This document shows positions 1 through 26,524 of a stretch of 30,687 nucleotides of DNA, in pieces (the first letter of the stretch is position 1; every line of letters begins with the position of its first letter). Below the pieces are notes generated by a model. It was given only the letters and a program-made list of their open reading frames with translations, made no database searches and had not been told where the DNA came from. Position numbers and translations under genes: made by a program. The stretch is from a virus: the IMG/VR virus record IMGVR_UViG_3300032285_001882, positions 1 through 30,687 of that record, one strand, 5' to 3'.

Positions 1-902
1 ACATTTTCATCGGCTCTTACGGCTTGTATGATGCACAGTTTGGTCATATTGGTGTTGTTGTGCGGGCGTGGGACGGTTCGACGTTTGGCACGATGGAGCA
101 GAATGTTGGCGGAGAATGGGTTTCACGCCATGACCGTACGATGCAAAACATTGACGGTTTCCTGCGCACCCACAATCAGGCTGCTATTGGTGGAGGTCAG
201 CCCGCTCCTGCACTTGCTGGCAACCAGCGTCAGGCTGGGTCGCTTGGTGTTTTCCGCCGTTCGGGTCCTACTCAAAACTCTGACCATCTTCAGCCTGACC
301 TTGAGGCTGGCGAGGTTGGTAACTTTGTTGGTTTTGTTCACGGTGAGAACCGCGACGGTAACGACGTTTGGTTCCAAGGTGTATCTGGGAACTTCTTTTG
401 GTCTGGCGCGTTTACGGATTCTGGAACGCATGACCTTCCCGATTTGACGGCTGGAGCAGTTTCGGAGCCAGCACCTATCGAGCCAGCACCGGTTGAGCCG
501 ACTCCTGAGCCAGTGAGTCCTGAGCCAACACCTGAGCCAATTATTGTTGAGCCTACGCCTGTAGAGCCAACACCTGTCGCACCTGAACCAACACCTATCA
601 TCCCTGTAACGCCGAAGCCGGAGAAGCCAATGCCTACGCCTGAAGAAATTGCTACACAAGAAGGACTTATTGCACAGGTTCAGCCTGTAGACCTTGGTGC
701 CATTATCGGTAACGGTACTGTCCGCAAAGTTGTGTGGGCTGTTTATGGTTTGCTTGGTCTGTTTATCCTTGCCGTTGGTGGCGGTTTACAGGCTATCCAC
801 GTTCTTGCCCCTGAATGGTTTATGTTCATGGTCGGTTCGTATGCTGCGCTGGGTCCCGCTTTCTCGGGTCTAGCTATGGCAAACATCAAATCATCTAAGT
901 AA
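1..902 (+). CDS. CHAP-type endolysin, C-terminal part, with membrane tail (5' partial)
   Basis: The frame is open from the left edge, so the start lies outside the window. The first visible residues read FIGSYGLYDAQFGHIGVVV, followed about 15 residues later by MEQN. This matches the second half of a CHAP amidase/peptidase fold, with the catalytic His in GHIGVVV and an E/N polar residue; the catalytic Cys would lie upstream. A middle domain follows, then about 55 residues of Pro/Glu/Thr repeats (PEPTP, VEPTPVEP), and then two hydrophobic stretches near the C-terminus (VVWAVYGLLGLFILAVGGGL and WFMFMVGSYAALGPAFSGLA). The layout suggests a peptidoglycan hydrolase tethered to, or fused with, a holin-like membrane module. 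CHAP assignment is good; the holin idea is inference. The gene ends just before a terminator, which fits the end of a lysis or late operon. Confidence 0.75.
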   Translation, partial: IFIGSYGLYDAQFGHIGVVVRAWDGSTFGTMEQNVGGEWVSRHDRTMQNIDGFLRTHNQAAIGGGQPAPALAGNQRQAGSLGVFRRSGPTQNSDHLQPDLEAGEVGNFVGFVHGENRDGNDVWFQGVSGNFFWSGAFTDSGTHDLPDLTAGAVSEPAPIEPAPVEPTPEPVSPEPTPEPIIVEPTPVEPTPVAPEPTPIIPVTPKPEKPMPTPEEIATQEGLIAQVQPVDLGAIIGNGTVRKVVWAVYGLLGLFILAVGGGLQAIHVLAPEWFMFMVGSYAALGPAFSGLAMANIKSSK

Positions 903-915
903 CCTCCCGTTACAG

Positions 916-941
916 ACGCCGCCTATATATGGCGGTGTTTT
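916..941 (+). terminator. Rho-independent terminator after the lysin gene
   Basis: An 8-bp stem pairs 916-923 (ACGCCGCC) with 931-938 (GGCGGTGT), including one G-U pair. The loop is TATATAT, followed by a short T run (938-941). It begins 14 bases after the lysin stop codon and probably ends the late or lysis transcript. Confidence 0.75.
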
Positions 942-969
942 GTGACCCCTAAAAAGAAAGAAGAAAGTA

Positions 970-1047
970 ATGGATAACGAGAACGTCGGCGGATATGTTT
1001 GCCCTATCGACCCTATGGATGCGATGCAATGCGAGTCTTGCCAGTAA
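970..1047 (+). CDS. 25-residue Cys-containing small protein
   Basis: A short frame, MDNENVGGYVCPIDPMDAMQ followed by CESCQ, sits between two terminators and follows a purine-rich GAAAGAAGAAAG stretch that can act as an SD. It has three cysteines in a C-x9-C-x2-C pattern, which could hold a metal in a dimer. No family is recognised. Its position right before the second terminator supports it being translated, but its size makes the call uncertain. Confidence 0.45.
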   Translation: MDNENVGGYVCPIDPMDAMQCESCQ

Positions 1048-1068
1048 GATAGTTACTGTTGAGAGTCG

Positions 1069-1101
1069 AGACCCCCTATTGCGGTAGGGGGTTTCGCTTT
1101 T
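1069..1101 (+). terminator. Strong Rho-independent terminator
   Basis: ACCCCCTA (1071-1078) pairs with TAGGGGGT (1085-1092) across a 6-base loop, with two more weak pairs at the base, and TTTCGCTTTT follows. It is the second terminator within 160 bp and isolates the lysis region from the leader downstream. Confidence 0.85.
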
Positions 1102-1119
1102 GTGCGTGCGCTTGAGTGC

Positions 1120-1163
1120 AAGAAATCCGTGGTTTCGCTGAAAGAAATCCGTGGAAACGCTGA
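1120..1163. repeat. Two tandem 22-bp direct repeats
   Basis: Positions 1120-1141 and 1142-1163 share AAGAAATCCGTGG and CGCTGA and differ only by TTT versus AAA in the middle. The swap keeps an internal complementarity (GTTTC and GAAAC) between the units. No frame is apparent across them. They lie between a terminator and the leader of the next small gene, so they may be protein-binding sites. Confidence 0.6.
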
Positions 1164-1164
1164 A

Positions 1165-1208
1165 GCAATATGCGTTCTCTGCATAATGCTTTTTTAGCTA
1201 CAGCTAAA
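1165..1208. promoter_or_regulatory. Two operator-like inverted repeats
   Basis: GCAATATGC (1165-1173) and GCATAATGC (1181-1189) are inverted copies with one mismatch and a 7-base spacer. Directly after them TTTAGCT (1193-1199) and AGCTAAA (1202-1208) form a perfect dyad with a 2-base spacer. Placed upstream of the gene at 1284 with the tandem repeats before them, they look like regulator-binding sites. The regulator is unknown. Confidence 0.5.
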
Positions 1209-1231
1209 TAATTTTGCCGTAGAGTTGTAGC

Positions 1232-1263
1232 GAGGACAGGATGCAGGGGTGTAGCCTGTTCTC
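1232..1263 (+). other. Leader hairpin upstream of the small basic gene
   Basis: GAGGACAGG (1232-1240) can pair with CCTGTTCTC (1255-1263) with one G-U pair and a 14-base loop. It ends 8 bases before the TTGAGGAG SD of the gene at 1284. It could stabilise or modulate the 5' leader. No T run follows, so it is not a terminator. Confidence 0.4.
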
Positions 1264-1283
1264 ACTAATCTTGAGGAGTATCC

Positions 1284-1412
1284 ATGGCTAAGGGTAAGGG
1301 CGGTAAGCCTGTCGCGTCGTCGTCGAATGATGGACGTAACAATAAGAAGGCTGCAAAGAAGTATCCGAAAGTTTTTGATGCTGTGAAGCGTCGTCTGGTT
1401 ACTGCGAAGTAG
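1284..1412 (+). CDS. 42-residue lysine-rich basic protein
   Basis: The start is chosen from a clear SD (TTGAGGAG, 1271-1278) 5 bases before ATG. The product begins MAKGKGGKPVASSSNDG and continues with a Lys/Arg-rich region (KKAAKKYPK, VKRRLVTAK). About a third of the residues are basic, which suggests nucleic-acid binding. No family is recognised. Its last 14 bases overlap the 3' end of the convergent gene at 1399-1920. Confidence 0.65.
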   Translation: MAKGKGGKPVASSSNDGRNNKKAAKKYPKVFDAVKRRLVTAK

Positions 1413-1920
1413 TTGCGGGGCAGGTTGCGGGTATCACATATTTGCCCGCGACGACTGACTCATTTTGGGTTATCTGTATCCACATTTCGGTTGAGCCTTG
1501 ACAGGCAAACTTTTGCGGGTTGACGTCTACTGTCATAGTGCAAGCGTTGTAGGTTTCTTTTGCCGTCCAACTGTTGCCGCCTATTTCTAGGTTGAGTCCT
1601 GAGCAGGGTTGTCCGTGACTGTTGTAACTGACTCGCACCCAGCCGTTTGCTTGTTGAGTGATTGTTGCGCCGATGGTAATTCCGGGTGTTGCGAGTTTGG
1701 GTGTGATTGTTCCTGCGTCTGGTTGTTGTTTTGCAACGGGCTGGGTTGTGTCAATTATTGGAGTGCCGTCTGGCGGCGGTGTAGGGGCTGCTGTGAACTT
1801 CGGAATTGTCGGTGTGGGGGTTTCTGTTACCGGTAAATCTTGTGGCTTTACAGAGCCGTATGCCGCACCTGCTGTTGCGATAGTAAGTAACGCTGTGGTG
1901 AATGCGATACCAATTTTCAT
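1399..1920 (-). CDS. Secreted protein with signal peptide and Pro/Thr-rich linker
   Basis: The start at 1920 gives MKIGIAFTTALLTIATAGAA, a good Sec signal peptide with a probable AYG/AAY cleavage region. An upstream in-frame ATG would add 12 charged residues in front of it and is less likely. A Pro/Thr-rich linker follows (PTPTIPKFTAAPTPPPDGTP), then a compact C-terminal domain with four cysteines (near PCSG, NACTM, FACQG, ATCPA) that could form two disulfides. The protein should act outside the membrane or in the wall. It is the last gene of a leftward unit and converges with the gene ending at 1412. A surface role such as superinfection exclusion is only a guess. 173 aa. Confidence 0.8.
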   Translation of the reverse strand: MKIGIAFTTALLTIATAGAAYGSVKPQDLPVTETPTPTIPKFTAAPTPPPDGTPIIDTTQPVAKQQPDAGTITPKLATPGITIGATITQQANGWVRVSYNSHGQPCSGLNLEIGGNSWTAKETYNACTMTVDVNPQKFACQGSTEMWIQITQNESVVAGKYVIPATCPATTSQ

Positions 1921-1922
1921 TT

Positions 1923-2138
1923 CTAATCTTTCTTTCGACGGACGGTGGACATCCACTCTTCGATTACTTTCTTATCCCAACGGGGTGAACGTCCAATAAA
2001 AATTGTTGGTTCTGGCATGTCCCGTTTTGCGGGGTTACCTTCACGACGTCGGCGGGTTGCCTGATTGTGGTAGAGGCGTGCCGTAACCGTTTTGACTTCG
2101 AGTAGTTCAGCGATTTGTTCGAGTGTGATTTGTTCCAT
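1923..2138 (-). CDS. Small helix-turn-helix DNA-binding protein
   Basis: The product MEQITLEQIAELLEVKTVTA begins with a MerR/excisionase-like HTH and continues with an Arg-rich segment (ATRRRREGNPAKRD), then IFIGRSPRWDKKVIEEWM. That end matches the usual 'selected the row, proceed to insert' layout of small phage HTH proteins. The start at 2138 is preferred because GAAAGAAATC precedes it; an ATG 12 bases earlier lacks an SD. It ends 2 bases before the start of the secreted protein gene. It could be a local repressor or an excise-like factor. 71 aa. Confidence 0.75.
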   Translation of the reverse strand: MEQITLEQIAELLEVKTVTARLYHNQATRRRREGNPAKRDMPEPTIFIGRSPRWDKKVIEEWMSTVRRKKD

Positions 2139-10140: not shown

Positions 10141-10472
10141 TGGCAATCATAAAGGTAGAAGGCGAAATCGTATCCCTCAACCAAAGCGGATATGGTGTAA
10201 AACTTCTTGAGACAAACGAGTCTCAGGGAAAGACCTACAAGCAGCGTTACACGGTTTGGTTCAAGGAACCACACGGTTTGAACCCCGGCGATGTTGTCAC
10301 CGTTAGCGGCATCCTTGGTGCTAAAGGTTCATCATGGGAAGACAAGCAGACTGGCGAAACACGTCTCGGTGTAGACCTGTCAATCAACGCTCCCCGTGTA
10401 GAGGGTCAGCCACAGAAATCATTTTCTGCCCCAGCAGCATGGAAACAAACCACCGACGAAACACCGTTCTAA
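10140..10472 (+). CDS. OB-fold ssDNA-binding-like protein with acidic tip
   Basis: The 110-residue product has a beta-rich core (MAIIKVEGEIVSLNQSGYGV, then YTVWFKEPHGLNPGDVVTVS), a disordered linker and a C-terminal TTDETPF. The last residues resemble the conserved acidic-Pro-Phe tip of SSB proteins, which docks replication partners. It may be the working replisome SSB while the protein encoded at 4399-4794 plays another role. It closes the replication operon before a terminator. Confidence 0.65.
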   Translation: MAIIKVEGEIVSLNQSGYGVKLLETNESQGKTYKQRYTVWFKEPHGLNPGDVVTVSGILGAKGSSWEDKQTGETRLGVDLSINAPRVEGQPQKSFSAPAAWKQTTDETPF

Positions 10473-10487
10473 AGAATGATGAAGATT

Positions 10488-10526
10488 AGCCGATGTCGAA
10501 AATATATGCGATGTCGGCTTTTCTTT
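10488..10526 (+). terminator. Rho-independent terminator of the replication operon
   Basis: AGCCGATGTCG (10488-10498) pairs with CGATGTCGGCT (10509-10519) as an 11-bp stem that includes two adjacent G-U pairs, with a 10-base A/T-rich loop and a TTTCTTTG tail. The arms also contain a direct repeat CGATGTCG. Confidence 0.8.
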
Positions 10527-10565
10527 GTTATTGTGTGAAAAGACCACTACCGAGAGGAAAACATT

Positions 10566-10814
10566 TTGGCTTCAATGGCAGAGCGGGCTAAACAAAGTTT
10601 TAGACCTGCTGGTAAAGGTTGCACATTCAATGATTGGATTTCCACTCTTGATGTGGACGACCAGTTGACTGTCCGCGAATTGGTTGATGACCATTCTTGG
10701 ACGATAGAGAAGTTGGTGACTTTCTTCCAAAAGGAAGGTTCAACTTCTAGCGAGAAAACAATTTCTAGACACCGCAAACACCAATGTCGGATATGCGATG
10801 TCTCTGAAGGATAA
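10566..10814 (+). CDS. Small HTH-like protein upstream of phosphoesterase gene
   Basis: A TTG start at 10566 follows GAGAGGAAAA (SD 10552-10557) at good spacing; an ATG three codons later is the alternative. The 82-residue product contains FNDWISTLDVDDQLTVREL, a long helix, and a basic SEKTISRHRKHQCRICDVSE segment. The fold resembles a small DNA-binding homeodomain-like HTH seen next to phage nucleases, but no family is certain. It overlaps the next gene by 17 bases. Confidence 0.6.
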   Translation: MASMAERAKQSFRPAGKGCTFNDWISTLDVDDQLTVRELVDDHSWTIEKLVTFFQKEGSTSSEKTISRHRKHQCRICDVSEG

Positions 10815-12012
10815 AGCTGAAGCTTCAAAGCCAACAATGGCTTCGCGTATTCGCCAACCTGCGCCTAAAGGTTGGGAGCAAGGTATCCGTTTCGACCCGA
10901 AAGATGGTCGCGTCCAATATGTGACGACAGATATTCTTCCGGTTATGGAGGGTGAACCTGACTGGCGTACAGCCATCGAACAAATGGGTATCACCATCCC
11001 TGAAGGTTACCGTGTCCGTATCGCAGAGATGAAGTACGACCCTGTTGCTTGGACTCGTGAAGACCCTGAACAGCGTCGAGCCACGACTCAAGCAATTTGG
11101 CGTTACCGTTTTGTTGTCGAACCTGACACATCAGACCCGATAGTTGATGGTGTCGAATTACTGAATCTGTTGAAACGCGCACCCAAGCAGACTAAAAAAG
11201 TAAGTGGGTCAAACACTTTAGTTCTAAATTTGAATGATACTCAGATTGGTAAAGATGCGGGTGGTGGTACTGAAGCAACGCTTGAACGTATTGACCGCTA
11301 CTTTAGTCTTGCCGAGGAGCGTATCAAAGCGGAAAAGAAGCAACTAAGCGATTTAGTTATTTTGATGGGTGGCGACCTTGTCGAGGGATGCTCCATTTAC
11401 CCCAACCAGTCTTTTCAGATTGACCGTGACCGTCGCGCACAAATCCGCACAATGACCGCCGTCACTCTAGACATGATGGACAGACTTGCTCCATATTTTG
11501 ACCTTGTCCGTGTTGTCGCCGTCCCCGGCAACCATGGTGAACATCGACTCAACGGTAAACGAGTAAACCGTCACGACAACGACGACCAACTTGTTGCTGA
11601 AGGTGCCGCGTTGGCTGCCAGCCGCGACCCGAAACTTGAGCACATCGTTTGGAATATCGCATACGACCAGCCAGCGTTGACGATAGATATTCAGGGTCAC
11701 ATTACGGCGGTAACCCACGGCTCCGTGTACGGTAAGGCGGGCGGGGCGACACCAGCTCAGAAAGCCTACAACTGGTATAAGAACATGGCGGCATCACATC
11801 ACCCTGTTGGTGACGCGACCCTACTTGTCGGAAACCACTTCCACCACGACATCATCACCAACTATGGAAATCTGTTGTTTGTGCAAAACCCTGCCATGGA
11901 TGGTGGCTCGCCAGAGTTCGCAGACTACTCCGGTACAGACTGCCCACCGGGAATGTCCACTTGGTTGATGAACGAACATTCACGCTTTACCGGGTATGAG
12001 GTTCTACGGTGA
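10798..12012 (+). CDS. Calcineurin-like metallophosphoesterase (Mre11-type fold)
   Basis: The five metallophosphoesterase motifs appear in order: NDTQIG (D147), GGDLVEG (D193), GNHGE (N245, H246), THG (H307) and GNHFHHD (H347, H349, H350). The first motif reads D-T-Q where D-x-H is usual, as in other phage relatives. A 140-residue N-terminal region of unknown fold precedes the catalytic domain. It is probably a nuclease or phosphodiesterase acting on DNA or nucleotides. The HTH-like partner just upstream may help it find DNA. 404 residues, with no partner ATPase (Rad50/SbcC) nearby. Confidence 0.85.
   Translation: MSLKDKAEASKPTMASRIRQPAPKGWEQGIRFDPKDGRVQYVTTDILPVMEGEPDWRTAIEQMGITIPEGYRVRIAEMKYDPVAWTREDPEQRRATTQAIWRYRFVVEPDTSDPIVDGVELLNLLKRAPKQTKKVSGSNTLVLNLNDTQIGKDAGGGTEATLERIDRYFSLAEERIKAEKKQLSDLVILMGGDLVEGCSIYPNQSFQIDRDRRAQIRTMTAVTLDMMDRLAPYFDLVRVVAVPGNHGEHRLNGKRVNRHDNDDQLVAEGAALAASRDPKLEHIVWNIAYDQPALTIDIQGHITAVTHGSVYGKAGGATPAQKAYNWYKNMAASHHPVGDATLLVGNHFHHDIITNYGNLLFVQNPAMDGGSPEFADYSGTDCPPGMSTWLMNEHSRFTGYEVLR

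Positions 12013-16604: not shown

Positions 16605-16605
<1 letters not shown>
16354..16605 (+). CDS. 83-residue helical hypothetical protein
   Basis: A GTG start follows TTTGGAG. The product MGQVEKLTVAIEFLDSVINI then LKAYKTFPDQRAALQIALDA is all-helical in composition and acidic. The stop overlaps the GTG start of the epimerase gene by one base (TAGTG). Its link to the sugar module is only by position. Function unknown. Confidence 0.6.
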
Positions 16606-18706
<2,101 letters not shown>

Positions 18707-18732
18707 AGGTTTCCGCACTAATTGGATGGCAA

Positions 18733-19170
18733 ATGTTGAAGCACGATGGACGCACGGTAGGGTTTACCGCATCAGCGTTCGACCTGCTTCACGCCGGGCA
18801 TGTCCTCATGCTTGCCGAGGCAAAGAACCACTGTGACTATCTGATTGTTGCGTTACAGTCCGACCCTACGATTGACCGCCCCGAAAAGAACCGCCCTATC
18901 CAGTCGATGACGGAACGGTGGCTTCAGTTGGAGGCGGTAAAGCACATTGACGAAATCATCCCTTATGACACAGAGGATGACCTACTTGTTCTACTTCAAA
19001 GCATCCACCCTGACGTTCGCATCCTTGGTGACGACTACATCAGTAAAGATTTCACCGGTAAGCAGTGGTGTATCGACCACGGGGTAGAACTTATCTACGC
19101 AAACCGGGAACACAAGTATTCATCGACAACATTGCGTCAAAAGATTCACAAAGCAGAACAATCAAAGTAA
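18733..19170 (+). CDS. Cytidylyltransferase (glycerol-3-phosphate cytidylyltransferase-like)
   Basis: The HxGH motif is in FDLLHAGHVLMLAEA (H20, H23). ALQSDPTIDRPEK and RPIQSMTERWLQL follow, and the C-terminal REHKYSSTTLRQKI corresponds to the second catalytic motif. The best fit is the TagD/CTP:glycerol-3-phosphate class, making CDP-glycerol, but other nucleotidyl transfers (FAD or sugar-linked) cannot be excluded. It is the third activation enzyme of the module. 145 residues, close to TagD length. It lies 26 bases after glf. Confidence 0.8.
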   Translation: MLKHDGRTVGFTASAFDLLHAGHVLMLAEAKNHCDYLIVALQSDPTIDRPEKNRPIQSMTERWLQLEAVKHIDEIIPYDTEDDLLVLLQSIHPDVRILGDDYISKDFTGKQWCIDHGVELIYANREHKYSSTTLRQKIHKAEQSK

Positions 19171-19187
19171 ATAACTTAGGAGGAAAT

Positions 19188-19871
19188 GTGAAGCACAAAA
19201 TTGAGGAAGTAGACCTCGCAGAACTCAAGCCCAACCCCATCAACCCCAAGAACCACAACCGGGATTTGCTGGACAAGTCGCTGGGCAGTTTCGGCTACAT
19301 TGACCCTATCGTTGTAGACGAGCGCACCGGCTACATGATTAGTGGTCACGGACGACGCGAAACCCTTGAACTGATGAAGGAAGCTGGCAAGCCCGCACCT
19401 AACGGTGTAACTGTCAAGGGAGACAAATGGCTTGTCCCTGTCGTTCGCGGGTGGGAATCCAAGGACGACATTGAGGCTAACGCAGCACTAGTGGCACTCA
19501 ACCGCACCACCGAACAGGGCGGATGGGATAGAGAGAACCTGCTACCTATCCTTCAGGGATTGTCGGAAGCTAACATTCTTGACCTTGTAGGTTTCGCAGA
19601 GTCAGACCTGACCGTACTAGAGCGTGCAGTAGAGGCAGAGACAGTCTTTACGATTGACGTATCGGATGCTATCGACGAGTTCATTGACGACACCGGTATC
19701 GAGAAAGACCGAATCACCGTCCTCTATTCGAGCGTTCTCCGCGTCTACTTCCAGACCGAGGATGCCCGTCAAGAGTTCTTTGACACCATCGGTTACGACA
19801 ATGATGGCAAGCAACTCACCATCCGCTACCCTAAGTCGTTTGAGCGTCAGGCAGCCGAGAAATGGAGCTAG
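19188..19871 (+). CDS. ParB/sulfiredoxin-fold protein
   Basis: The GTG start follows an AGGAGG SD. The N-terminus is EEVDLAELKPNPINPKNHNR, then GYIDPIVVDERTGYMISGHG and RRET, the ParB/Srx nucleotide-binding motif (GHGRR). The rest is a helical domain of unknown role. In phages this domain is often beside DNA modification enzymes and may act as a nuclease, NTPase or substrate-recognition part. It overlaps the glycosyltransferase gene by 10 bases, so the two may work together. 227 residues. Confidence 0.8.
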   Translation: MKHKIEEVDLAELKPNPINPKNHNRDLLDKSLGSFGYIDPIVVDERTGYMISGHGRRETLELMKEAGKPAPNGVTVKGDKWLVPVVRGWESKDDIEANAALVALNRTTEQGGWDRENLLPILQGLSEANILDLVGFAESDLTVLERAVEAETVFTIDVSDAIDEFIDDTGIEKDRITVLYSSVLRVYFQTEDARQEFFDTIGYDNDGKQLTIRYPKSFERQAAEKWS

Positions 19872-21649
19872 AAGGTACTGGTCCACTCAATTTCCCTGTC
19901 TACATTCCCACACGAGGTAGAGCACACAAGCAACTCACAGCCGATGCTCTTATCGAATTGGGTATTAGCCCTTACCTTGTGGTGGAAGCAGCCGAGGAAG
20001 AAGCATACCGACTAGCCAACCCACAATGTAAAGTCATTGTATGGCCACAACGGTTGATGGACGAGTATGAGAAAACACCCGAACTTGACCCACACCCCAC
20101 CACTGGGGCAGCCCACAACTATGCGTGGGAACACTCACGCGAAATGGGTTACAGCCACCACTGGATTATGGACGACAACATTCGCCGGTTTCTTATCCGC
20201 CATAACGGTAGACGGGCAGTAGTTTCGGACGCTAAAGCACTTCGCTTCAATGAAGAGTTCATCCAAAAGTTCAAGAACCTTGCCGGAGTTAGCCTCGCAA
20301 TGTCCCCGTTTATGCAAGGGAAAACCTTCGCACTCAACACACGCCTGTATTGTGCAGTCCTCTACCGTAACGACTTACACGAGTACGGAATCAAATGGCG
20401 ACGCGGACTCAACGACGACACCATCGTATCCCTAGACATCCTCAAGACCGGATACTGGTGTACCGCCGAAAACCGAGCCATCGGCATCCTGAAACTAGGC
20501 ACAAGCCGTAAAGGACGTATTGAGGGCGGCATGACCGACTTCTACGCACAAGGTGGTTTCATCAAAAAGTCGGCAGAACTTGTCCGACTACACCCAGACT
20601 GCACCAAGACGGTAGTACGGTTCAACCGCATCCACCACGACGTAGACTTCAGCAGCTTCAAGCAGCAACTTATCCCGGTAGACCCTAACGAGTTCCCACA
20701 ACAAACTAAAGAACCCGCCCAGAAGGCACCAGAGGCTACCACGAAGGCTAAAAAGCCCACCAAGGCAGTAACCCCTCCGAAAGAAAAGAAGAAAGCTGTA
20801 GTGTCGGAAAGCCTACAAGCCGGAATCGACTTACTCGACGAAATAATCGCCAACCCTAAAACGGAAATCCTCCACCCTATCTACATCCCATCCAAAAACC
20901 GGGCAGACCGTGACGGGGCAGCAAAACTCCTCAAACAGTACGGTATCCCATTCAAAATCGTTATCGAACCACAAGACGCAAGTAAATACCTAAACCGATA
21001 CGACCCTAGTGAACTACTCGTCATGGACAAAAACGATGAAGGTGTCCATTACGTCCGCAACTATGCCAAACAACACGCAACCGACAACGGTCACGCATAT
21101 CACTGGCAGATAGACGACGACATCACCAAGTTCCTATTCCGCAAAGACGGCAAAAACAAAGCAACCAACCCCGCCCACGTCCTCAACGCCATAGAGACAG
21201 TAACCAACCTCTACGCAAACATCGGAACCTCAGCCGCCAAATACGACACTTTCGCATTCGGAGCAAACAGCCCAATACAACTCAACAAAATGGTCGCCAG
21301 CGCAATGCTATTCCGAAACGACCCAGATGTATGGTTCGAGAAAGACATGGTAGAAGACATAGACATCACCATGCAATACCTCACCAAGGGAGACTGTAGC
21401 CTCCTATTCGCCACCGCACTCTGCAAAGTCCCCACAACCCCAACAGACACAGGCGGACTAGGAGCAGACGCACGCATAGGCGGAATGGCAGAAACCCGAT
21501 GCCAAAACCTCATAAACAAATGGGGGACAGACTTCAAACTCATAACCAAAAACAACGCCCCACGCATAGCCCCATCACAAGTATGGAACACATTCAAACA
21601 ACAACCCACAATAAAACCAACTACTCCAAACCATCCCAAGGTAAAGTAA
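19862..21649 (+). CDS. Two-domain TAGT-like glycosyltransferase
   Basis: Two related domains lie in tandem. Domain 1 (about 10-265) begins FPVYIPTRGRAHKQL and has WIMDDNIRRF (D104, D105, N106). Domain 2 (about 325-585) begins HPIYIPSKNRADRDG and has WQIDDDITKF (D418, D419, D420). Both fit a GT-A fold with a DxD-like metal/nucleotide-sugar site, and resemble the TET-associated glycosyltransferases that glycosylate modified cytosine in phage DNA. A Lys/Pro-rich linker (about 279-316) joins them. The gene follows ParB and the sugar-activating enzymes and precedes the terminase genes. No TET/JBP dioxygenase is seen in the window, so the acceptor is unproven. Codon use in the second half is strikingly A/C-rich. 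Confidence 0.75.
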   Translation: MELEGTGPLNFPVYIPTRGRAHKQLTADALIELGISPYLVVEAAEEEAYRLANPQCKVIVWPQRLMDEYEKTPELDPHPTTGAAHNYAWEHSREMGYSHHWIMDDNIRRFLIRHNGRRAVVSDAKALRFNEEFIQKFKNLAGVSLAMSPFMQGKTFALNTRLYCAVLYRNDLHEYGIKWRRGLNDDTIVSLDILKTGYWCTAENRAIGILKLGTSRKGRIEGGMTDFYAQGGFIKKSAELVRLHPDCTKTVVRFNRIHHDVDFSSFKQQLIPVDPNEFPQQTKEPAQKAPEATTKAKKPTKAVTPPKEKKKAVVSESLQAGIDLLDEIIANPKTEILHPIYIPSKNRADRDGAAKLLKQYGIPFKIVIEPQDASKYLNRYDPSELLVMDKNDEGVHYVRNYAKQHATDNGHAYHWQIDDDITKFLFRKDGKNKATNPAHVLNAIETVTNLYANIGTSAAKYDTFAFGANSPIQLNKMVASAMLFRNDPDVWFEKDMVEDIDITMQYLTKGDCSLLFATALCKVPTTPTDTGGLGADARIGGMAETRCQNLINKWGTDFKLITKNNAPRIAPSQVWNTFKQQPTIKPTTPNHPKVK

Positions 21650-23392: not shown

Positions 23393-26300
23393 ATGGGCGC
23401 TCTCGACAATATTCGTCGCTTCCTCACCCCCAACGATTACGTCGAAGCAGCATCACGCTCCGCAGACTCCCTCGATAAGTTCTCTCCCGGTGTCCCTATC
23501 CAGCCCGCTGACGGGTTTAGCCGCACCCCTCGTGCACATGACTTCCTTACCGGCTACAACATTGCTGTACGCCCCCGCCGTAACGAGCGCGTATCCTTCG
23601 TCACTCTCCAAGGGCTTGTCGAAGCGTATGACATCGCACAAATGGCTATCACTCACCGTATCGACTCGATTCGTTCCATGGAGTGGTATCTGGAACCTGT
23701 TGAGGGTTATGACGGTGACACGGATGCGATTATCGCCCGCGCCAAGAAGATACTTGCCAGCCCTGACCGTGAACTACCATTCCGCGCATGGCTGTCCAAG
23801 TTCCTGTGGGATGTCCTCGCTTATGACGCAGGTACGCTTTACCGTATCCGCAATAATGCCGGTCAGGTTATCGGTCTAAAGGTTGTTGACGGCACCACGA
23901 TTGCTCCCCTGCTCGACTATCACGGTGGACGCCCAACCGGTGACGCACCAGCCTACGTCCAGTATGCGCAAGGTGTCCCATGGAACTGGCTTACACAAGA
24001 CGACATTATCTATGTGCCTTTCCGTCCGATGCCTAACTCGCCTTACGGAAAGTCACCACTCGAATCCATCCTGCTAAACGCCAACACAGACCTGCGTTTC
24101 CAAAACTACTTCCTTTCACGCTTCACCGAAGGAACTGTTCCTGAAGGTTTCGCCACCGCACCAGAGTCGTGGGGTCCCGACCAGATTTCTGACTTCCAAG
24201 ATGCTTGGGAAGCAATGATGTACGGTGACGACTCAAAGAAACACCAGATTCGTTGGGTACCCGGCGGAACGACCTTCACTTGGTCGCAAGAGAATCCTTT
24301 CCAATCCGAGTTTTCGCTGTTCCTTATGCGTAAGACTGCGGCAGCCTTCCACGTCACCCCTAACGACCTCGGTTTCACGGATACGGTAAACCTCGCCAAT
24401 GGTGAGACCCAGACTGACGTACAGTTCCGTATCGGTGACCTGCCTATGATTCAGCACGTCGAAGATATCCTTTCGGCGTTCCTCCAAAACGACCTCGGTC
24501 TGCCCTTGAAGTTCCAGTTCAACACTGGTCAGGAGAAGGAAGACCGTCTGATGGCAGCTCAGGTTGCCCAGATTATGATAAACAGCGGTGTCCTGTCGCC
24601 CTCCGAGGTTCGTGAGGAAATGTATGGACTTTCTGAACCTGACGGTGTGGTTATCCCTCGCTTCTTCAACTCTGGTCAAGGACCTATCCCTGTAGCTAAC
24701 CTGCTCGGTATTGCGGGAACGGTTGATATTGAGACCGCCATCCCTGACGAGGGTGCCACACTCCCTGAATCGTTTACCCCAGCATCTGGTGTTATCAGCC
24801 CTGCCCCTGTCGCTAAAGAAGCAACCGTAGGTATCACATCCGCCACCGGCACAGTCGCATCCCCCATGCTTGCTGAGGGAGACAACATTGCTGAGGATGA
24901 CGAGGACGAAGAAGATATTGTCAAGGCTATTGCTGAGGAGCGTTCCGCCTTCAAGCGTTTCGTGAAGGCTCGCAAGCGTGACGGTAAATGGCGTGACTTC
25001 CAGTTCAACCACATCACCAAGGTGGAAGCTGACATCCTGAATGCTGAAGGTAAAATGTCTGCCACCCCTGACCGCCCCCTCGGATGGATTGCGGTTGTAG
25101 CAAACGACACTGGTCGCGTCCTTATGGAGCAGCGACTCTATGACCCGGTAGACCCTAACGCGGGAATGTTTGATTTCCCCGGCGGTCACGTCGAGGACGG
25201 TGAATCGTTCCGCGATGCTGCTATCCGCGAGTTCAAGGAAGAGATTGGTTTACCACTCCCTGACGGTGAATGGGGTGGCACATGGACAACGAAGGATGGT
25301 CTCCGTCACGGGTTCGTTTACCGTATCCCTAAAGAGGCTTCCGTCAACTTGCGTTCCGCCCGCCTTGGGGAAGACCCTGACATGGCAAATACGGGTGAGG
25401 CAGATTCCGTACTGTGGCTACCTATCGACGCACTTGAAGGTAACCCTCTTGTTCGACATGACATTAGAGAGAATGTGGACAAGATTACTGAGGCGGTTGA
25501 TGCCGTCCCTTTAGCCAAGGGCTGGCGCGACCAGCCTGACACAGTCCCTCAACACAAGTACGACCGTCTCATTGTTGACGAGTATGCTCCCCGAATTGTT
25601 GATGCCCTAAACCGCATCTTGGAGAAGTCCCCCGTGGTGGACTCTATCCGCGCTACCCGCAATTCTTTCCAGAAGGCAACACCCAACAATGCCGACTTTG
25701 AGGAAGACGTTGACGACTTTGGTGAGGAAGTTCCCTATGGCGGGGCAACTTCTGGTGGTGCGGCAAAGATTGAACGTAAATCTATGGCTGCCGAAATTGC
25801 CACCTCACTCGCTATCGCTGCCGGTACCGCCATCCTCTCTGAGGTTATTCGAGCAATCTATTTGGATGCGATAACCTCTGCTGCTTTTGCGGCTTCAGAG
25901 CAGACCGGTCGCCCCCTAAACACAACCACCGAGTTTGGTGTTTACACGACAACATTAGACTTTGCTGACTGGACTCCGGGAAGTAGTCGAACTGCCGAGT
26001 TTATTCGTGGGGATGCTTTCTCTGCCCTACTTGATTCCGCAGGTATCACCCTTGCGTCTGTAGACCAACGTACTGAGGACATCTATCAGACAACACTAAA
26101 CGCTATGGGTAACCGTATCGCTGACGGTATCCAGCAGGGTTTATCTGTCTACCAGATTGGTGCCACTCTCCGCGAGTATGTGTCTGACCCTCGCCGGGCT
26201 GACATGATTGCGCACACTGAGACTTCACGGGCGATGCACGCGGCAACAATCTCTACCTATAAAACTAATGGTATTGAGTTGATGGATTATCTGGCGGAGA

Positions 26301-26524
26301 GTGACGCTTGTGAGGAGTGTGAGATGCTCGCTGAGGGGTCGCCTTACAATGTTGATGATTTGGCTTTAGCCGATTTGCCTATCCACCCTAATTGTCGTTG
26401 TGCGTTGGAGCCTAACATGGATGCCTTGTTGGGTGTCGAGTCTGAGGCTTCAACTGTTGATGATGGGGTTGATTTGGGTGCGCCTGTTGAAGTGACTGAA
26501 GATGGTGTTGACGAACAGGGCTAA
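23393..26524 (+). CDS. Portal-NUDIX-MuF fusion protein
   Basis: This 1043-residue protein combines three modules. Residues about 1-450 are portal-like (ITHRIDSIRSMEWYLEP; RLMAAQVAQIMINSGVLSPS then EVREEMYGL). An acidic linker (DDEDEED, near residue 505) follows. Residues about 562-695 form a NUDIX hydrolase with an intact box: G598-x5-E604-x7-R612-E-F-x-E-E-I-G (GHVEDGESFRDAAI then REFKEEIG). The C-terminal region is MuF-like, with AHTETSRAMHAATISTY, then CEECEMLAEG and HPNCRC. Separate portal and MuF genes are usual. The frame is unbroken, so the fusion is real in this sequence. NUDIX activity on a nucleotide substrate is likely but the substrate is unknown. Confidence 0.88.
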   Translation: MGALDNIRRFLTPNDYVEAASRSADSLDKFSPGVPIQPADGFSRTPRAHDFLTGYNIAVRPRRNERVSFVTLQGLVEAYDIAQMAITHRIDSIRSMEWYLEPVEGYDGDTDAIIARAKKILASPDRELPFRAWLSKFLWDVLAYDAGTLYRIRNNAGQVIGLKVVDGTTIAPLLDYHGGRPTGDAPAYVQYAQGVPWNWLTQDDIIYVPFRPMPNSPYGKSPLESILLNANTDLRFQNYFLSRFTEGTVPEGFATAPESWGPDQISDFQDAWEAMMYGDDSKKHQIRWVPGGTTFTWSQENPFQSEFSLFLMRKTAAAFHVTPNDLGFTDTVNLANGETQTDVQFRIGDLPMIQHVEDILSAFLQNDLGLPLKFQFNTGQEKEDRLMAAQVAQIMINSGVLSPSEVREEMYGLSEPDGVVIPRFFNSGQGPIPVANLLGIAGTVDIETAIPDEGATLPESFTPASGVISPAPVAKEATVGITSATGTVASPMLAEGDNIAEDDEDEEDIVKAIAEERSAFKRFVKARKRDGKWRDFQFNHITKVEADILNAEGKMSATPDRPLGWIAVVANDTGRVLMEQRLYDPVDPNAGMFDFPGGHVEDGESFRDAAIREFKEEIGLPLPDGEWGGTWTTKDGLRHGFVYRIPKEASVNLRSARLGEDPDMANTGEADSVLWLPIDALEGNPLVRHDIRENVDKITEAVDAVPLAKGWRDQPDTVPQHKYDRLIVDEYAPRIVDALNRILEKSPVVDSIRATRNSFQKATPNNADFEEDVDDFGEEVPYGGATSGGAAKIERKSMAAEIATSLAIAAGTAILSEVIRAIYLDAITSAAFAASEQTGRPLNTTTEFGVYTTTLDFADWTPGSSRTAEFIRGDAFSALLDSAGITLASVDQRTEDIYQTTLNAMGNRIADGIQQGLSVYQIGATLREYVSDPRRADMIAHTETSRAMHAATISTYKTNGIELMDYLAESDACEECEMLAEGSPYNVDDLALADLPIHPNCRCALEPNMDALLGVESEASTVDDGVDLGAPVEVTEDGVDEQG

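Follow-up and report, generated by a model that had tools for sequence, protein, structure and literature searches.

A candidate internal start precedes a probable holin fused in frame to a phage endolysin

The lysis gene at the beginning of a tailed-phage contig is probably an endolysin-holin fusion that has retained, or regained, the ribosome-binding site and start codon of the holin, with two predicted products: a tethered lysin and a free holin. We give this reading, which is based on comparative sequence analysis, a probability of roughly 0.7. The window, i.e., the whole stretch of 30,687 nt that was analysed, is IMG/VR virus record IMGVR_UViG_3300032285_001882, whose terminase and portal genes, found with Pfam, are those of a tailed phage. 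Comparison with related contigs establishes the fusion, its modularity, the place of the membrane part in a holin slot and the conservation of a putative start signal. The original prediction described a CHAP lysin that continues via a Pro-rich linker into C-terminal membrane segments, and this architecture is confirmed by the open frame, by PHROGs matches, by the CHAP domain of homologues and by hydropathy. The relevant features of the window are:

3 to 902, plus strand: endolysin-holin gene, 3' part; open frame of 299 codons to a TAA stop, with 7 related loci in a first scan
3 to 104 (approximately), plus strand: last part of the CHAP domain, from alignment to the homologue L005, in which the CHAP match ends at residue 115
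222 to 446, plus strand: middle domain, probably wall-binding; tblastn matches to Microbacterium/Arthrobacter phage endolysins (query 74-150), and a PHROGs match to phrog_7470 (66-173)
453 to 629, plus strand: Pro-rich linker, residues about 151-208, read from the translation
620 to 623, plus strand: Shine-Dalgarno-like GGAG, separated from the internal ATG by 6 bases; duplex energy -6.6
630 to 902, plus strand: predicted nested in-frame holin ORF, 90 residues with ATG start, from the conserved start and the synonymous test
714 to 794, plus strand: predicted TM helix 1; AlphaFold2 helix 29-55 of the 90-residue tail, and Kyte-Doolittle hydropathy
813 to 881, plus strand: predicted TM helix 2; AlphaFold2 helix 62-84 of the tail, weaker in hydropathy
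917 to 934, plus strand: weak terminator-like hairpin after the lysin gene
1067 to 1096, plus strand: strong terminator-like hairpin, 13 pairs

The lysin gene starts off the contig, its 5' end being cut by the contig edge before window position 1, and alignment of the window protein to L005 places the Cys half of the CHAP domain off the contig as well. The truncated protein has no Pfam match at E ≤ 1; in PHROGs, it matches endolysin/amidase families (phrog_7470, 2e-11; phrog_8577, 7.9e-07). Longer homologues pass the Pfam CHAP cut-off of 26 bits, with 31.5 to 37 bits for L002, L004, L005, L006 and L007 and 26.8 bits for the more distant L008. The middle domain is 35% to 55% identical to 6 phage endolysin records over a quarter of the query (tblastn); we take it to be SH3b-like, although no profile match under that name was obtained. 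The 90-residue tail, modelled by AlphaFold2 from 25 sequences, forms a two-helix hairpin with a mean pLDDT of 82.6, so that Kyte-Doolittle hydropathy and structure prediction both return the membrane segments that the original prediction had proposed. A model of all 299 residues (mean pLDDT 39.6) was too poor for use. As had also been proposed, the gene ends before terminator-like sites, of which window positions 1-1500 contain 4 versus 1.4 expected. The idea that the tail might be a wall anchor is not borne out: it has two helices, LPxTG is absent from the window protein, and a sortase-type wall anchor is unlikely.

Protein and tail searches of viral contigs yielded 34 distinct contigs, window included, with a hairpin of one of two unrelated families, A and B. 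The tail lies within one long open frame in 28 of the 34 (counting both the window and L020, the contig of which begins in the linker with the lysin part off contig) and is a separate gene in 6 (L028, L030, L031, L033, L046 and L052); tail B was seen only fused, in 3 contigs. The lysin parts are of several types, assigned by profile only where scanned: CHAP (L002, L004-L008), Peptidase_M23 plus PG_binding_1 (L029, L032, L047), M23 alone (L059), M23 plus Amidase_2 (L019), VanY-like plus PG_binding_1 (L042, L043, L050; VanY-like score at or below the Pfam cut-off) and phrog_12298 (L022, L024). Alignment places L021 with the CHAP lysins and L060 with L059, and L035-L039 and L041 are M23-like by reading of the sequences only. 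In the alignment, the closely similar lysin parts of L002 and L007 carry unrelated hairpins (A versus B), while different lysins carry identical hairpin regions in L006 and L022 and nearly identical ones in L004 and L024, showing that lysin and hairpin recombine as modules. Given that fused frames recur in contigs of many samples, the fusion is, on this comparison, genuine and modular rather than an assembly artefact. In a tree of tail A (25 rows), the fused versus separate state needs 3 changes and 5 of 21 inner branches are well supported; the tree does not fix the direction of fusion.

What is the tail? In four distinct cassettes, tail A is encoded by its own gene directly after the lysin gene:

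L033: CHAP lysin, ATGA overlap with the tail A gene
L046: M23 lysin, ATGA overlap with the tail A gene
L052: phrog_12298 plus LysM lysin, TAATG overlap with the tail A gene
L030/L031: VanY-like lysin followed by the tail A gene; L031 is near-identical to L030

At the ATGA and TAATG overlaps, the lysin and tail A genes do not share a reading frame, so that an in-frame fusion would need more than the loss of a stop codon. The contig L016 encodes a CHAP relative without the tail and has an r1t holin in the tail slot (PF16945, 4.5e-23; phrog_443, 4.6e-20). Next after the r1t holin gene of L016 comes a coiled-coil/TM gene that differs little from the one after the fused gene of L004 and is related to the one after the fused gene of L006; the latter two match phrog_689, annotated as "holin", at 1.2e-05 and 3.6e-07, respectively. 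In L033, L046 and L052, the gene next after tail A is small and encodes a C-terminal helix. The position of tail A after the lysin in four cassettes, together with the r1t holin in the same slot of L016, makes a holin the most likely identity of the tail. The L016 cassette has two TM segments in the same slot and the same kind of coiled-coil/TM gene next to it, but there the holin is a separate gene. As a side observation, the separate tail A gene of L028 (1116-1466) has an extra acidic C-terminal extension and no recognised lysin adjoining it.

The tail may function as a holin, but it lies outside every curated holin family tested. The window tail has no profile match at E ≤ 1, and profile searches with the tail hairpin gave no wall-binding match. 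The best holin family for tail A is phrog_29195, at a non-significant E of 0.036-0.088 (L032, L005, L030), and it is outscored by families of unknown function (E 0.0021 for L033 and 0.0045 for L029). PF16945 is matched neither by the scanned tails (L028, L030, L033) nor by the full proteins scanned, and no sequence similarity is detectable between tails A or B and the r1t holin of L016. When tails were compared by tblastn with 50,697 phage records, the window tail gave one irrelevant weak match (E 6) and the L007 tail matched five records with E values of 0.8-1; nothing at E ≤ 1 was returned for the L033, L029 and L019 tails. No predicted viral protein matched the tail hairpin at E ≤ 0.001 in Foldseek, but the three best stand apart: a 380-residue M15B peptidase at E 2.7e-3, a protein of 85 residues at 3.2e-3 and one named Holin at 5.3e-3, the next being at 1.1. 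No C-terminal two-helix hairpin is present in the endolysins of Cece, Fransoyer, Wyborn and Kovu (4 of the 6 tblastn records), CMP1 and CN1A; the highest 19-residue hydropathy among these six isolated-phage endolysins is 1.44, and a C-terminal stretch of the Wyborn protein is moderately hydrophobic (1.42). We also compared a tail A profile with 11 membrane proteins, comprising the three tails B, the L016 holin and lysis-region proteins of Clavibacter phages CMP1 and CN1A and Pontimonas phage phiPsal1; the best E was 0.072, without real similarity.

In 27 of the 28 fused genes, an in-frame ATG or GTG with a Shine-Dalgarno-like string precedes the hairpin; L050 has none. A site was defined as a duplex energy of -4.9 or lower versus the 16S tail in the 75 codons that precede the hairpin motif, the cut-off being that of the weakest of the 27 and chosen after the energies were known; the weak sites (-4.9) are those of L003 and L004. 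After removal of near-copies (L003, L037, L041, L048), the site is present in 23 of 24 genes. The string is AAGGAGG in L002 and L007, AAGGAG followed by GTG in L006, L021 and L024, AAGGAG within another amino-acid context in L020, and AAAGGA with ATG or GTG in L029, L032 and L038; overall, the start signal is retained despite a different amino-acid context in L019, L020, L022, L029 and L032. The distance to the hairpin motif is 26-49 codons for the internal starts and 19-37 codons for the starts of the separate tail A genes of L052, L028, L033 and L046 (longer in L030). Of the separate genes' own Shine-Dalgarno sequences, that of L046 is strong (-11.9), those of L028 and L033 are moderate (-6.1 and -5.6) and that of L052 is weak (-2.9), with little at the ATG of the stand-alone L030 gene.

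We redrew synonymous codons with the protein kept and scored the best site wherever it fell within the 75 codons. Per-gene P values range from 0.004 to 0.57 (median 0.08; window 0.08), with 6 of 24 below 0.05. The Fisher-combined P is 9.1e-8 with 1000 draws, 5.7e-8 with 400 draws and 4.8e-7 when TTG is allowed, values that overstate the independent evidence because the genes are related. Control stretches gave no such signal: 2/23 sites (P 0.92) at 75-150 codons upstream, 7/23 (P 0.77) at 150-225 codons upstream and 0/24 (P 0.87) on the hairpin itself. The contrast between the linker and the control stretches is the firmer result, and the resampling supports selection on the putative internal start. 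The share of GTG among valine codons (15/15 at the site versus 101/723 elsewhere) is circular, given that the site is defined as ATG or GTG, and was not used.

Taken together, a two-helix holin, probably with N-in/C-in topology (class II type), would be fused in frame to the endolysin. The first product would be the full-length lysin, held by the hairpin at the inner face of the membrane, and the second a free holin of about 90 residues initiated at window 630; both would end at the common stop. Basic residues lie before TM1 and after TM2 and the loop is devoid of them, except for an Arg in L059 (judged by eye), which suggests that the tail is N-in/C-in. Such a topology would keep the enzyme cytoplasmic until the membrane is breached. 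The long and short forms have the hairpin in common and could co-assemble, and we infer that when holin assembly triggers, the tethered enzyme would already be at the lesion for export and lysis, its long Pro-rich linker giving it access to the wall. With about 58 residues, the linker would span roughly 18 nm if extended (our estimate), and the tethered enzyme could reach the wall. That the long frame is open in 28 contigs suggests that the full-length form matters too, but the existence of unfused relatives indicates that it is not obligatory. The original prediction held that enzyme and membrane component would be one polypeptide, in place of the usual two. The single open frame of 28 contigs and the membrane part in a holin slot agree with it; from the conserved internal start, by contrast, the membrane part is expected as a separate product too, and "one gene, two products" appears to fit better than "one polypeptide instead of two". 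A more far-reaching version, which we consider rather unlikely, is that one gene constitutes a complete holin-endolysin system, with the free holin made from inside it and the full-length enzyme acting as a preloaded holin subunit that imposes an antiholin-like delay and is delivered to the wall via its own lesion.

Other membrane proteins could also take part. Small hydrophobic ORFs were scanned on the same strand at 24 fused loci, over about 1.6 kb where the contig was long enough. A gene with a C-terminal helix occurs near the fused lysin in 5 of the 24 loci (L004, L006, L022, L024, L039) and one that pairs an N-terminal helix with a long hydrophilic part in 3 (L007, L008, L060). A two-segment ORF is present at 3 loci (window 1658-1999, L005 7089-7295 and L039 3635-4198); that of the window is antisense to ORF 1399-1956, and that of L005 matches no family better than E 0.037. 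The original prediction that no other holin adjoins the lysin gene agrees with what we see on the downstream side, where ORF 1658-1999 is the sole flagged hydrophobic ORF on the same strand to about 1.7 kb and has no support. A second membrane component may take part in some phages. About 1.5 kb past the fused lysin of L005, there is also a minus-strand ORF (10463-10972) whose product has a hydrophobic segment at its N-terminus and, judged by eye, another part resembling NlpC/P60.

These neighbours bear on two other explanations. The fused protein might be a membrane-anchored endolysin only, as for Enc34, M4Lys and LysAP, with the hairpin tethering or inserting the enzyme, the internal start being a little-used relic of the fusion and the holin encoded elsewhere. 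Endolysins with C-terminal TM segments and separate holins do exist, other small membrane genes are present at some loci and L050 lacks the internal start. A relic should decay, yet 27 of 28 genes keep ATG or GTG with the Shine-Dalgarno-like signal across amino-acid contexts and with synonymous choices in its favour, and unfused tail A genes occupy the holin slot; we regard this alternative as doubtful. Much less probable still is that both products are made but that the short (or long) one is mainly a regulator, e.g., an antiholin, with the pore formed by another small membrane protein. The dual start of lambda S107/S105 provides a precedent, and the 8 of 24 fused loci with coiled-coil/TM or N-terminal-helix neighbours would offer candidates for the pore. 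However, such neighbours also lie beside r1t-type and stand-alone tail A genes (L016, L033, L046, L052) and look like partners, not replacements.

The K/E-rich nature of the linker raises the concern that the internal start arose by chance, just as the fusion could in principle come from assembly. Shine-Dalgarno-like sites with start codons also occur 150-225 codons upstream, and the per-gene P values are modest. Nevertheless, protein-preserving resampling is significant for the linker only, and the number of samples with fused frames argues against an artefact, making this explanation highly improbable. A fused holin with its own start remains our preferred reading.

Endolysins with internal starts are already known, as are endolysins with C-terminal membrane domains; an internal start that would yield a holin is unreported in the literature searched. 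Two-polypeptide endolysins, in which one gene has an internal RBS and start between domains and a shared stop, are common in phages of Gram-positive hosts (PMC9430671; Ms6 lysA, PMC3111421), and the short product is described as the wall-binding domain or as a second catalytic domain plus the wall-binding domain (PMC9430671). The fused genes have, as predictions, the features that genetically define this (iTSS) class, namely an in-frame internal start with its own RBS and a shared stop, but the predicted short product is a two-helix TM hairpin instead of a wall-binding or catalytic domain. The main text of PMC9430671 uses "holin" once and "membrane" zero times. In Enc34 ORF39 (PMC8943055), M4Lys (PMC7143992) and LysAP (PMC8879335), a catalytic domain precedes one or two TM helices at the C-terminus; lysis upon overexpression of M4Lys and LysAP is reported to require the TMD, and a separate holin is described for Enc34 and LysAP. 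Hydropathy and AlphaFold2 indicate that the genes studied here share the C-terminal two-helix TM domain with the Enc34 type. By contrast, those phages infect Gram-negative hosts, and the catalytic family of Enc34 and M4Lys differs from that of our fused genes: the Enc34 domain is of PHA02564 type, whereas the relatives scanned here match CHAP, M23 or VanY-like profiles. The searched text on Enc34 contains no occurrence of "internal" or "alternative start". The TpeE-family fusion of Clostridium sporogenes (PMC9527704) likewise combines holin and endolysin in one polypeptide, but there an N-terminal holin has a single TM helix plus an amphipathic one, while the membrane part here is C-terminal with two helices; an internal start for a separate holin was not found in the accessible text of that report. 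A survey of Gordonia lysis cassettes, in the portion available, mentions a potential holin-capsid fusion and no endolysin-holin fusion, and no internal start yielding a holin is reported among the matches listed in our search of titles and abstracts of the openly licensed literature.

The middle-domain homologues in Microbacterium and Arthrobacter phages, together with non-significant matches of a neighbouring small peptide in Clavibacter and Pontimonas phages, point to a host among Actinomycetota, perhaps Microbacteriaceae. Prophages gave no host, since a search for tail A in one genome per species returned 56 pattern matches, of which 0 were confirmed. The small peptide is encoded by a 25-residue ORF at window 970-1047 that ends ...PIDPMDAMQCESCQ. 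A similar ORF is located near the lysis genes in 14 of 35 contigs compared, with differing flanks. Its weak matches (E 0.2-2) are in six phage records, in five of which it is unannotated. Pontimonas phage phiPsal1 and Clavibacter phage CMP1 both have it immediately downstream of the hol/holin gene.

Elsewhere in the window, a single 1043-residue ORF (23393-26524) combines portal, NUDIX and Phage_Mu_F domains, and shortly past it lies a gene for a pyrimidine dimer DNA glycosylase (PF03013; 27435-27923). A sugar cluster at 16605-21649 encodes an epimerase, UDP-galactopyranose mutase, a cytidylyltransferase-like protein and a TET-associated glycosyltransferase (TAGT), the gene of which also matches phrog_842, beta-glucosyl-HMC-alpha-glucosyltransferase; this cluster suggests that the phage carries glycosylated modified DNA bases.

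In the textbook account, holin and endolysin are separate proteins, and this separation lets lysis be timed. A recurrent fusion that includes a holin start would be a way in which phages could merge both and still make free holin, and the notion of an endolysin as a subunit or regulator of the holin becomes directly testable. Nested holins without a gene of their own would escape gene finders. If both predicted products are made, the whole system for bacterial lysis would be contained in one gene.
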